A stretch of 64,000 nt of DNA from Cryptococcus deneoformans JEC21. Taxonomy: Eukaryota; Basidiomycota; Tremellomycetes; Tremellales; Cryptococcaceae. The number at the start of each line of letters is the position of its first letter. The first letter of the stretch is position 1. The stretch spans positions 1,234,701 to 1,298,700 of the forward strand of contig NC_006685.1 of the NCBI RefSeq assembly GCF_000091045.1, read 5' to 3'. Positions 54,354 to 63,028 of this stretch are shown here, in pieces. The position numbers were made by a program, and so were the translations under genes. The notes below the pieces were generated by a model. It was not told the DNA's origin, did not search any database, and worked only from the letters and a program-made list of their open reading frames with translations.

Positions 54354-55758
54354 GGCCAGATGAGTGAAAGCGCCTTGTTCCATGTATCGCTTTCGGGTGA
54401 ATATCTGGCCCCATTATCATCTATTCGTAAAGTTGTTGTTCGTCATTGTACATCCCGTAGAGCTCTTGGTTTTCTTTTAATGATGTGATAGGAATGATAC
54501 CAAAACAGATTGTATGCATGCGGCGAAATGTATGAAAACCTTATTATGAAAAGACCCTCAGAAGAATATACTGTCGCTCCGTGCTTCGAAAAGTCCTTGT
54601 ATAACCGATGTCAGGCGGTCAGACTTCTCGAGCTAGCGATGAAGAAATTCAAACAACATCACTGGGTCATCAAAACTGCTCAGGCCGACGGTTCGCGTAA
54701 CCAGACGCAGCTACAGTCATTACCAGATGTGTGGGCGGTAAGACCGTAAAGAATAAAGATAAAAATGAAAATGAAATATAAAGGTGAAATGGAAGCAGCC
54801 CAAAAGCACAGAGTAAGCCCCATCGAGTTACCTACCCCACCACACCACAAGGTGGATGGGTAAAACAGGCAATCGCATGACTATAGCTATGAGCGCATTT
54901 GTTTCATCCCCCATTGTCAACCCGCCCTCCTTCATGCAGCCATGACAACCGACCAAGGCTCATATCTTCGCCTGAAGCCAGCAGACCGCAAAAAAAAAGA
55001 AACTCCAGTCCAGACCCAAGCACTGGCACCTCCCATGCTCCACCGGATGAACCGGGTGGCCTACACAGAAGGAAAGAAACCAGTGGGACGCCAAGGCCAG
55101 CCAAACAACCATTTGCCACACCCTACACAATATACCTCAACTATCCAAACCAGACCGTTCACTTACCTCCCCATCACACACCCTCAATCCAACTACAACC
55201 GCCACTCTGTAGTCTTAGATACAGCGCTTTCCCGGCAGGAGTGTCAAATTAAAGCAAGGGGGTGATGGTAAAGGGGCTAATAGGAAGGCATAAAGAAAAG
55301 CTGAAAATACCGTGCGTCTGGGCGGGGAAGCAGAACGAATAGCGGAGAGGATAGGAGTAAAGACGAGATGGGGGAGGCTCCGGGGACTTTCGACCCACAG
55401 TGTGAGATCGGATGGTCGCAATGCCAACCAGTGCGTGAACTGCAAAAGCGATTCTTGTGTTTGGGCTGATTGAAAAGAAAGGGAAACAAAAGGCAAAGCG
55501 AGGATAAAATGAAATTTTGTTCGTCGACAAACGAAGCGGAATCAAATTTTAACTAACCATTTGATGCCGCTCTGAAGATCCCGCTGCATCAAGGAACTTT
55601 TTATCTGATGTTCGCCGCTGTGTATTGGTGCATAGCCGAGCGCTGATGGCCAGTGTTCCACCAGTTCATGTACATACATAGAGGTCTAGTGTAGTATCGT
55701 TCCGTATCTTATTATTATGTAGGTTCTGCTCTCATATGATTTTGCTTTTTAAAAGGCC
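54354..55758. other. Convergent region with unidentified ORFs
   Basis: 1.4 kb between two genes that run toward each other. Plus-strand ORFs at 54510-54749 (MYACGEMYENLIMKRPSEEY onward) and 54899-55265 show no family signature. The size is large for two 3' flanks, so a small gene or a non-coding RNA may be hidden here. No tRNA was found. Confidence 0.35.
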
Positions 55759-58134: not shown

Positions 58135-60542
58135 ATGTACCCCATCCACACGGCCCCCGTCTACTACTCCTATTCCCGCCCGCCCTCCCCAAGCAATGGC
58201 CCCGCGGCCCCGCCCTTCGAGTTCTCCGGCGTCACAATCCCCCCAAGACTCAAGAGCATTGGCAGACAGCTGAGCCAGCTGGGCAACGACTTTCTTACCA
58301 CGCAGCCAGACCAGGAGCCCAAGTCACAGCCCAGAGGGGACGGGAAAGCCCCAGATATACCAGGCATGGGCGATGATCCCATCCTCTGCCCGTATTGCGA
58401 CAAGCCGCTGCCTCCCAGCCTCTTTGCCCAGGTCGCGGAGCACTCACATCGTCACCAGACACTGGGTCCGTCTCGGCCCTCTTCAGTTCCATCGTCTGCC
58501 GTATCCGCCAAACTAGGACCCACGCCTGGGCATAAAAGTGCGGACAAGACTACGTCAGATGCTTTGAGTGCAACAGTAAGGAATGGTGATGCAGCGAATC
58601 ACTCTGCAGTCGTTAATACCATCTCGCCTGCAGACATTGCTAGGTGGTCGTCCCTTGCGGGTATTTCCATCACCATGCCGGAGCCATCAGGGCCGTCACA
58701 AGGTATTCACAAAGCCAAAGATGCAGACGCAAAGCCGTTTCCAATGATACCGCCCCCGCCTCCGCCTAACAAGCTCACCCGACCTCCTCCTGCTTCGCGA
58801 CACAACTCTGCTGATTCCGGATCGAGGTTTGGGTTTTTCCGAAGAGATTCCAAAAGAGAAGACGATAGTGACGGAGAGGGTGAGGATAGAGGAAGCGGTT
58901 ATGCAAAACTGGGCGCGGGTGGGAGTGACGACGAGGAAGAAGTGACGTCTGGCAAGAAAGAGCAGCATGATGGTGTCAACGAGGGAGATGACGATGCCAA
59001 AGTGGAAGACAACGCTAGCCTTGACCTCGGAGATCAAGACAAGAACGGACAGGTTGAGGATGAAGGACGGCCTGAATCCACGGCTAAAGACCCCGGAGAA
59101 GTTTCGAGCGTTGACTCTAACAGCGACTTGAAAAACGTGATGCAAGAGATTCTTACCAAGGTGAATCAAATGGTAAGTCGCCCCCATTGAAGTATGCATT
59201 AGGGACTGATATCCTCAAGACCGCATCCCATAATCAACTCCTCGACTCCCATTCTTCCTTGCTCACGTCCCTCAAAATTGCCCGTTCAAATCTGGCAATG
59301 GCGGAAGCAAACTCTGAAATGCTCGAAGAACAATTGAAACGGCAGCCCTCTACCTCCAGCGCCCGAGTAGTCTCGGGCCCTGCTGCAAGTCCAGTGACAT
59401 CAAACTTTACACACGCAAGTCGTCCGTCTAGCCCCATGCCTGGCAACATATCAGACCAACGGGCACGACCGTCAAGCTTAAATCTGACGTCATTGCCCAC
59501 CAATTCCGCTCCATCTTCAGCTGCGCCCGAAAGCAGCAAGTCATGGTTCTGGTCCAATAACAAGAAAAGACCCAACGAAGCCCCTGTTACAGGCGGCAGA
59601 ACGAGCGGGGAGTATTTGAAGGGACTGACAAGCCCACCTATGGCTGTGCCGTACGGTGGAGCACTGCCTGAGGGGAGGCCTATGCCAGCTAGATCGGCCA
59701 CACATTCTGGTCAGTTGGCTACTGGAGTCAGTAAATCGCTTGGCGCGGATAGCATTCTCTCCAAACAATCATCTACTCGCCCTAGTACACCTACCCAAAC
59801 ACCGGGGCCTGTACCCGTCTCGAATGCGGAACTTGCCTCCCTTCGCACTGCCTACTCGTCTGCCCTATCCAAGCTCTCTTCTTTGACCGCTGAGCTCACT
59901 GATTTGAAGCGCACCAACTCTGCCATGGAGGCTGAGCTTGAGTCTCTTTCCCAAGCACTGTTTGAAGAAGCCAACAAGATGGTGGCGGATGAGAGAAAGA
60001 GGCGGGCAGAGATGGAGGAGAATCTGAAGGAGGTTAGAGAGGAGAGAGAAGCATTGAAAGAGACCGTTAAAGTGCTGGGAGGGAAGGTGAGCCCGCCCAA
60101 TGAAGATGCGGATGCCAAGCCACCAAAGAAAAACGAGCCAGAAGAAGTGGAGGAGGAGAACATCATCCCCAGAGACCTTGATAAACACTATGCCGCTCTT
60201 CGCAAGTCCATTCACAACGTTGCCTCCCCTCCCATCTCGCCACCCGCCGACGCATCCCGCCTTCCGGCTACCTTTGAACTGCCTGAATCGGGTCTTGCTT
60301 CGCGTGCATCCCCAGAGGAAGTGGGTAGGCCGTTGTCAGTCAGTTTGCCTGACGAAAGTAACCCCTGGGCGTCTTCGGCGAATTCTGCCGCAGCAGCAGC
60401 AGCAGCAGCACCGGTTGGTCTTGGACTAGGTGTTGATGAAGAAGGAAGCGTACCAACAGAGTTTAGATTAAGCGTAGTAACGCCTAGTCCCAGGAAGGAA
60501 AAGACAGGGGAAGGTTTGGAATCCGGGGCTGGATTGAGTTGA
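58135..60542 (+). CDS. SEC2: Rab GEF of the Sec2/Rabin family
   Basis: Exchange factor for Sec4/Rab8-type GTPases on secretory vesicles. The Sec2 signature coiled coil is in exon 2: LASLRTAYSSALSKLSSLTA, MEAELESLSQALFEEANKMV, ADERKRRAEMEENLKEVREE. Start MYPIHTAPVYYSYSRPPSPS at 58135 follows a 12-C run. Exon 1 encodes a Pro/Ser-rich region with a CPYCDKPLPPSLFAQVAEHS zinc-ribbon-like motif, then charged, low-complexity sequence; it joins exon 2 by a GTAAGT intron at about 59173-59219. The C terminus is Ser/Pro/Ala-rich with an Ala8 run. The Cys pair at the N terminus is unusual for Sec2. Confidence 0.85.
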
Positions 60543-60861: not shown

Positions 60862-63028
60862 ATGCACAAAAATGAGACAACCAGCCATCCACCGCCAGAA
60901 ACTACTAGCAGTACTATCCACCAGGCCCTCCCTCCAGACAGCCTGCAAGACCACCCCGATACCCACCCTGTGAACCCCCTTGGTCTCTTCATCCGCCCGC
61001 ATCCAACGCGCGGCAATGGTCTCTTTTCGCCCCGCCCGATTCCAGCGGGCACTGTCGTCGAAGAGTCTCCCGTCCTAGTCCTTACCAAGGAGCAATGGGA
61101 ACAAGGCCAGATGGACGGGACAATTTTGGGAGAATACGGGTTTTGCTGGAGTGCAGGCGGGATGGCTATTGGACTTGGATTAGGTGAGTCCCCAATTATT
61201 TGCATGACAGAGAGGCATAGGCATTGAAAGGAAATGTAGCTTCACTGTTCAACCATTCTTCCAGACCCAACGTCAACTTTATCCGTTCCCCTTCCACAAA
61301 AACGATACGATTTGTGACTGCCAAGCACATATCACCAGGAGAGGAGCTCTGCATTTGCTATACAGCCGATGAGTCCAAGCTTTGGTTTACTCCCGCGAGA
61401 GGAGAGGAAGAGGACGAGGTGCTGGGCGGGGAGAGCGAGGGTGAAGGCGACGGGTTACCTGACGACGTCGATGGGCTGGTGGAGGATGTGCAACAAGCAA
61501 AATTGAATTCCTCGGAACCAACACTTCAAGCTCCTCGTCCTGTACACATTTCTTCTTTACCTTCTTACCCATCTTCCTCGTCATCTTCTCCTGCACCTCA
61601 ACATACAATTCCTCCCTCGTCTCTCCCTGCCCCTTTACATTCGTCCGGGCACAAAGCGTCGGGCCAACGTCACCTTTCGAAGCATCGACAACCGGCTACT
61701 CTGGTTGACGATCTTGCTTGGCAGGAAGACGAATGGAAAGATGAAAAGGGAAGGGATCATGTGGGTGAGGGAAAAAAGGCGGGAGAGGATTGGGGCGAGG
61801 TTATTCGAGTGAAGGGCCCCGCAGAGCGAGAGAATGACGGGAATGACAGAGAGTTGAGTAAGTCCATTTTGTTCTCGTCCGATATGGACTGGGAAGCGCT
61901 GACTCGGTATCAGTGCAAGTCTGGATATTAGAATTTTCAGACGCCAAGTTGACAAAGACGGCTCTAAAGTGGGTTACACTATTGATCACATAATCGAGCT
62001 AGTAACTGACTGACTGCTTTGTAGTTTTTCCAAAGAGATTTGGCCCAACGACGTCAATGAACGGTTACGACACCTCAAGAGAGTCTGTAGGCGTAACGAA
62101 GATGGCAAAGGTATGAGCACTAGTCAGGCATGAAAACGGTCGAACCTGCTGACAGATACATGTAGAAATATGCAGAATAGCGCTCTGCCCTCTTGACGAA
62201 CACTCTGCCGATTCCCTCTCTAGTCTCATGACCGCTTTCTCCCCTCTTCTTTCGTCTCTTACGCCTAAATCTTGGTCTGTCCCATCTTCGGGTGCTCGCA
62301 CTCAAGAGCAACTCAAGTGGAAGCACCACATTTGGCCTGTATCCTTTTCTCCAGCTCCCATAATTCCCGCCGATTCGTCCTCGTGGCCAATCTCCCGTAA
62401 GGCTTGGGTTGCAGCAGGTATCAAGCGAGTCTTGAAACTTGCAGTCAATGCAAAACAGAAAAGCGAGCTTCCAGTGGCCACTTTTTGTACGTCTGCACCC
62501 CCCTGTTTTTGGCCGACAATGGATGGTTTCATCCCGCCTACCCTCAACCTCCGGGCTTCATCCTGTGATACTCGAATTTCTGAATCTCATCCCTTGCGGC
62601 ATGCCACTCTCAATTGTGTTGCCTCCATTGCTCACCTTCGCACTGTGCCACCTTTTACAGATGTTCCCCCTACAAGGAACGGCGCGGATTACCTGCTGAC
62701 AAGTCTGAGCTTATTTATCAGCCATGAACCTTGTGTAATGTGTGCAATGGCATTATTACATTCTAGAGTTCGAGAAGTTTTTTATGTTTTCCCCAGGAAA
62801 AAAGGGGGAGGTTTTGAATATAACGAGGGTAATGAATATGGGGAGGGGTCCCCAGTGCATCAACATGATGAAGGAGCAGGTACACGAGAGGATATAAGTG
62901 GACAAGGAGGATTTGGGATCCACGCCAGGAGGGATCTCAACCATAGATTTGAGGTCTGGAAATGGAATGGGCATGTCGATGAGGATGTCAGGAAAGAGCT
63001 AGAGATTGACGAGAACCTCCAACTGTAG
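60862..63028 (+). CDS. TAD3: SET domain fused to tRNA adenosine deaminase subunit TAD3
   Basis: One frame joins two modules in 650 aa. Exons are 60862-61183, 61231-61857, 61914-61968, 62025-62110 and 62166-63028 (1953 nt, divisible by 3). N-terminal SET: GNGLFSPRPIPAGTVVEES, GLGLGNVASLFNHSSRPNVN, RFVTAKHISPGEELCICYTA; NHSxxPN and ELxxxYT are the SAM-binding signatures. After an acidic, Ser/Pro-rich linker, exon 3 gives MQVWILEFSDAKLTKTALN, exon 4 WPNDVNERLRHLKRVCRRNE, then ICRIALCPL. Deaminase: HPLRHATLNCVAS (HAx in place of HAE), HEPCVMCAMALLHSR (PCxxC zinc ligands), and the end IHARRDLNHRFEVWKWNG. TAD3 is the inactive partner of TAD2, which makes inosine-34 in tRNA. A SET fusion is unusual. 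Confidence 0.88.

Follow-up and report, generated by a model that had tools for sequence, protein, structure and literature searches.

A predicted SET-Tad3 fusion protein in Cryptococcus deneoformans and its apparent spread through Basidiomycota

Does a single fungal gene join a lysine methyltransferase to a subunit of the enzyme that edits the tRNA wobble position, and if so, what might the two parts do for one another? The question is raised by a 64,000-nucleotide stretch of Cryptococcus deneoformans JEC21 (contig NC_006685.1, positions 1,234,701 to 1,298,700; here called the window, with positions counted from its first letter), in which an initial annotation had read five exons as one frame running from a SET domain into Tad3. 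Splice joining reproduces this arrangement, giving one frame on the plus strand at 60862-63028 (1944 nt including the stop codon, or 647 amino acids), and we consider it likely that the gene encodes one bifunctional SET-Tad3 protein, a Set7-like methyltransferase placed on an ordinary Tad3. The parts of the gene are as follows.

Exon 1, 60862..61183, plus strand: start codon, variable N-terminus and first half of the SET domain (residues 1-108), with a GNG motif at 51-53.
Intron 1, 61184..61239, plus strand: 56 nt, GTGAGT..TAG, inside the SET domain.
Exon 2, 61240..61857, plus strand: residues 108-314, with the second SET half (FNHS, EELCICY), the linker and the first Tad3 residues.
Intron 2, 61858..61913, plus strand: 56 nt, GTAAGT..CAG, splitting the codon of Met314.
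Exon 3, 61914..61968, plus strand: Tad3 N-terminal domain.
Exon 4, 62025..62110, plus strand: Tad3 N-terminal domain with LRHLKRV.
Exon 5, 62166..63028, plus strand: the rest of Tad3, with an inactive deaminase domain (HAT replacing HAE; zinc ligands HEPCVMC) and the stop codon.

If exons 1 and 2 are kept as given, a frame is closed by 32 combinations of splice sites, and none of them has the length of 1953 nt that was first proposed. The combination given here was chosen because an annotated protein of Cryptococcus neoformans (P0001) has the same length of 647 residues and aligns to it with 39 substitutions and no gap, a match over the whole chain which also argues that the SET-Tad3 frame did not arise by chance. 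An alternative acceptor for intron 2 at 61940 likewise closes a frame and was dropped, as it would lose MQVWILEFSD, which is present in P0001; over this junction P0001 reads ELMQVWILEF, favoring the acceptor at 61913. The four introns (56, 56, 56 and 55 nt in order) all run GT..AG, and CTGAC lies 15-19 nt from the 3' end in three of them. A CTRAY match was sought in intron 1 and none was found. A second ATG lies at 60872, 10 bases past the start codon and in another frame that stops at 60973; leaky scanning to it would yield a short peptide.

The initial annotation had made the fusion hang on the removal of intron 2. As it stated, the frame of unspliced exon 2 ends at 61931, and its SET open reading frame (61221-61931) does carry SET sequence, although only the second half, since intron 1 splits the domain and Pfam finds one half in each of the first two exons. 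The fusion itself does not depend on intron 2, because exon 2 alone encodes a SET half, the linker and the start of Tad3; the Tad3 starts given by structure (residue 292) and by profile (about residue 305) both fall upstream of the end of this exon. On this evidence, removal of intron 2 would be needed for continuing into Tad3, and not for bringing SET and Tad3 together. Relatives show the same junction, in that P0030-P0032 read continuously from FNHS to the Tad3 C-terminus and have nothing inserted where intron 2 lies; at this position P0033 and P0036 have additional residues resembling read-through intron. P0030-P0033 begin just before ASLFNHS, at the site of intron 1 in the window, and P0068-P0070 stop shortly after GLGLG, which suggests that these starts and ends reflect unspliced gene calls at intron 1.

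The SET domain occupies approximately residues 36-158 of the 647, and Pfam SET matches the joined protein at residues 51-148 with 54.1 bits (cut-off 22.4). Both the window protein and P0001 carry GxG, NHxxxPN and ELxxxY with its catalytic tyrosine. Conservation of the domain where it is fused, which the initial annotation had marked for checking, was followed through 139 fusions (164 rows less 25 that were truncated, mis-joined or unrelated), and Tyr148 and Asn112 are invariant in all 139. Because its catalytic tyrosine never varies, we consider the SET part to be probably an active methyltransferase. In the smaller alignment A1 (46 rows, truncated ones included), Asn112, His113 and Tyr148 are all invariant, and mean column identity is 0.67 in SET, compared with 0.69 in the deaminase core (500-580), 0.61 in 441-647, 0.47 in 313-440, 0.44 in 159-312 and 0.30 in 1-36. 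Between the window protein and P0001, six changes fall in the first 36 residues, six in the 122 SET residues, 15 in 159-312, three in 313-580 and nine in the last 67 residues. SET thus evolves under purifying selection that extends to its active site, though between the window species and C. neoformans, which are close, this selection is less strict than that on Tad3. The same genome (19.05 Mb, 14 contigs searched) holds nine Pfam SET matches, this gene among them, and a search of it for another SET close to that of the fusion found none. By sequence and by structure, the best match in the PDB is Set7 of Schizosaccharomyces pombe.

The Tad3 part is complete, extending over approximately residues 292-647. 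Structural comparison with Tad3 aligns 292-647, beginning at mouse ADAT3 residue 25, an alignment known by its first and last aligned residues only, and the profile A4 aligns with mouse ADAT3 from chain residue 37 (E 1.4e-38), this match beginning at profile position 13, which reads as about residue 305. Both alignments include the Tad3/ADAT3 N-terminal domain with HLKR, in agreement with the earlier assignment of LRHLKRV, which lies in exon 4. General models perform less well; PF00383, a general deaminase model and not specific to Tad3, gives 23.0 bits on the joined protein against a cut-off of 25 (26 bits at this gene in a six-frame genome search), PF14437 gives 23.2 bits, below its cut-off of 27, and NCBIfam returns sub-threshold matches only. 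The catalytic glutamate is replaced, with HAT in the window and glutamate at that site in 0 of the 139 fusions, and the zinc ligands H..PCxxC are kept in every one. A Tad2-like deaminase with HAE is present in the same genome. Likeness to solved Tad3/ADAT3 chains (yeast Tad3 7bv5, mouse ADAT3 7nz7, Trypanosoma brucei ADAT3 8aw3) extends over nearly their whole length, taking in the N-terminal strand, the N-terminal domain with HLKR and the dead deaminase domain with its zinc ligands; these chains, of 317-369 residues, match the Tad3 part only, whereas the fusion adds SET and a linker in front. The C-terminal part is an ordinary Tad3, and as such would be the subunit that has no catalysis of its own, partners Tad2 and holds tRNAs for A34-to-I editing. 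Tad3 binds Tad2 and grips tRNA by its N-terminal domain; in the mouse enzyme, loss of that domain is reported to have abolished deamination (PMC8216470). Tad2 and Tad3 are reported to be essential for viability (PMC11087585), including in Fusarium graminearum (PMC11156358).

In order to determine how widely the fusion occurs, a point raised by the initial annotation, searches were made with the window protein and with a profile of ten fusions, both of which contain SET and so are biased toward fused proteins. The former, with candidates limited to at least about 356 residues, matched 67 proteins, of which 59 carry Pfam SET; the other eight comprise six that start inside or after SET, one louse deaminase and one further deaminase, of the 59 SET-bearing proteins, eight are either SET pieces or gene models in which the deaminase core is missing. 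The latter matched 469 proteins, and SET is present in all of the best 120 of these 469. Fusions occur in three subphyla, namely Agaricomycotina (Cryptococcus, Desarmillaria), Pucciniomycotina (Microbotryum) and Ustilaginomycotina (Sympodiomycopsis; one row), and the fusion is apparently phylum-wide in Basidiomycota, as judged from these sequences. Strict motif patterns applied to the 164 proteins returned both domains in 134, SET only in eight, deaminase only in 20 and neither in two; these patterns are too strict, as 14 of the 20 called deaminase only have Pfam SET among the matches listed. A search with the SET part alone gave 34 matches, mostly single-exon pieces, and reaches close relatives only, which is too narrow to show that a stand-alone Set7 is absent from basidiomycetes. 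It is possible that some basidiomycetes have a Tad3 without SET.

From the 139 fusions, 39 were selected and separate trees were built for their SET and Tad3 portions; the SET tree also includes S. pombe Set7, and the Tad3 tree was rooted by hand on Pucciniomycotina. Tremellomycetes, Agaricomycetes and Pucciniomycotina each fall on one side of a branch in both trees, and the two broadly agree, as a single old fusion would give. The Ustilaginomycotina row lies beside Tremellomycetes in the SET tree (83) and outside Agaricomycotina in the Tad3 tree (94), and 22 of the 37 inner branches of the SET tree are open. One fusion before Basidiomycota diversified, followed by vertical inheritance, fits these trees, although the SET tree is weak.

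In the arrangement that we propose, the SET part (about 36-158) would be a complete and probably active S-adenosylmethionine-dependent lysine methyltransferase akin to S. pombe Set7, attached by a flexible linker to the first Tad3 strand, which in mouse ADAT3 (residues 25-33) belongs to the deaminase core (PMC8216470). The linker, predicted to be largely disordered, would tether SET near that core and yet leave it free to reach a substrate, and pairing of the Tad3 part with Tad2 is likely to keep SET at the editing complex. More speculatively, Basidiomycota may have linked a lysine methyltransferase covalently to an essential wobble-editing enzyme as a way of coordinating methylation with tRNA editing, a reading that as a whole we consider somewhat unlikely. 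SET held at Tad2/Tad3 could then methylate that complex, or a partner protein in translation or the maturation of tRNA; alternatively, it could bring the editing complex to chromatin. In either case the supply of S-adenosylmethionine is a possible common signal.

Several observations weigh against the reading of the gene as one bifunctional SET-Tad3 protein. By our own measure, linkers range from 53 to 263 residues with a median of 83 (136 measured fusions, from 154 rows examined of which 18 could not be measured). The AlphaFold model has a pTM of 0.59, with nearly all of residues 151-253 below 50, and does not confidently predict that SET packs against Tad3. Conservation of the Tad3 N-terminal domain barely exceeds that of the linker (0.47 against 0.44), the Agaricomycetes have a support of only 52 in the SET tree, and four gene models (P0051, P0056, P0061 and P0065) begin inside SET and have no first half. 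Gaps apart, the GxG glycines are substituted at G51 in one and at G53 in two of the 139 fusions, and His113 is replaced in one (P0190, by arginine). The substitutions in GxG or the SET-motif histidine occur in lone fusions (P0134, P0166, P0183 and P0190), and may be sequence or annotation errors, or may mark lineages with a weakened SET.

The alternative that survives best, and which we regard as a real if tentative possibility, is that the fusion is incidental, an active Set7-like H3K37 methyltransferase sharing a chain with Tad3 and having no functional coupling to it. Among solved proteins the closest is S. pombe Set7, which the title of one paper gives as a histone H3K37 methyltransferase and whose PDB chain is a short separate protein; the H3 context VKKPHR is present in the C. 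deneoformans genome, and the linker is long, variable and mostly modeled at low confidence. Pfam SET is nevertheless found in all named basidiomycete matches listed, which suggests that the linkage is under selection, with the reservations that the queries contained SET and that selected linkage would not by itself prove coupling. A less likely alternative, raised in the initial annotation, is that SET is dead or purely structural, for example an extra surface for binding tRNA or protein. Tad3 is itself a dead deaminase kept for structure, and the few altered GxG and histidine motifs together with the four models that have no first SET half are what such a module might show, but the catalytic tyrosine and asparagine vary neither in the 139 fusions nor among the 46 A1 rows, which disfavors it, as does a SET domain conserved about as well as the deaminase core. 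The weakest, that splice prediction has wrongly joined a neighboring Set7-like gene to TAD3, can be set aside as highly improbable, for although the SET frame stops at 61931 unless intron 2 is removed, gene models do err and at least one methionine lies in the linkers of 97 of the 136 measured fusions, so that internal starts are generally possible, exon 2 itself codes for a SET half, the linker and the Tad3 start, P0030-P0032 continue across the intron 2 site to the end of Tad3, SET accompanies the best profile matches (though the profile favors SET), and the window protein has no methionine between M101 and M314, whose codon intron 2 interrupts. Used as a test for a separately started Tad3, absence of internal methionines is informative in the window and not generally, only 39 of the 136 linkers being free of them. 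One erroneous model is P0040 (Tremellales sp. Uapishka_1), annotated as a phosphodiesterase, which has a beta-lactamase-fold part and a SET part with the deaminase core missing, and is probably a gene-model error across two neighboring genes.

As to what the SET part of a bifunctional SET-Tad3 protein would methylate, histone H3 is a plausible but uncertain candidate, a substrate of some other kind is equally so, and a protein that belongs to the machinery of editing or translation, or partners it, is only slightly less so. Two known SET proteins allow comparison. S. pombe Set7 (5h6z) is a short separate protein, with a 169-residue PDB chain, whereas here SET is fused to Tad3; vSET of chlorella virus PBCV-1 (3kma, 1n3j), named as an H3-Lys27 methyltransferase in its PDB record, is also separate and is less similar than Set7. 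In Table 1 of a survey of fungal SET proteins, S. pombe SET7 (NP_588361) stands alone in Group 19, and the Cluster 3 section calls the same accession Set11; the main text of that survey contains none of the terms 'deaminase', 'dCMP' or 'fusion' (PMC9692433).

A parallel comes from Fusarium, where binding of Ame1 to the N-terminal domain of Tad3 makes mRNA editing possible, a case of a fungal lineage adding a partner to Tad3 at that domain; Ame1, with its DUF726, is a protein separate from the Tad3 that it binds, whereas the fusion carries a covalently attached enzyme domain (PMC11087585). A role for the fusion in mRNA editing is not favored, because reports on such editing in basidiomycetes conflict, a review describing it in Polyporales (PMC7306014) and another study reporting no evidence of it in Coprinopsis cinerea or in five vegetatively growing Polyporales (PMC9723688).

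The SET and Tad3 families are both known, and fused proteins already stand in databases under conflicting names, including histone (lysine) methyltransferase Set7, SET domain-containing protein 7, transcription factor, cytidine deaminase-like protein and tRNA deaminase 3. In filamentous ascomycetes, SET7 also denotes an unrelated PRC2 enzyme, KMT6 (PMC9676040). A literature text search found no paper describing a SET-Tad3 fusion, with subscription papers mostly outside its reach and an earlier mention therefore possible. The distribution of the fusion suggests that protein methylation has an old, as yet unexplained link to tRNA editing. As Tad2 and Tad3 are reported to be essential, these fungi carry an enzyme of the chromatin type on a gene whose loss they probably could not afford. 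If SET is active, basidiomycetes would offer a natural test of a link between methylation and wobble editing, and a candidate setting for the little-studied Set7 group. For annotation there is a warning, as deletion of such a 'SET gene' would be expected to remove Tad3 as well.

Finally, two other features of the window were recorded. The upstream neighbor on the same strand, at 59121-60542 (plus strand), encodes a Sec2p domain (GDP/GTP exchange factor; Pfam 40.5 bits), and its frame ends 319 bases ahead of the start codon of the fusion. Further upstream, at 54799-55466 on the minus strand, lies a match to RNase MRP RNA (RF00030, 59.6 bits, cut-off 50) that spans 668 bases, the RF00030 model having 266 positions.
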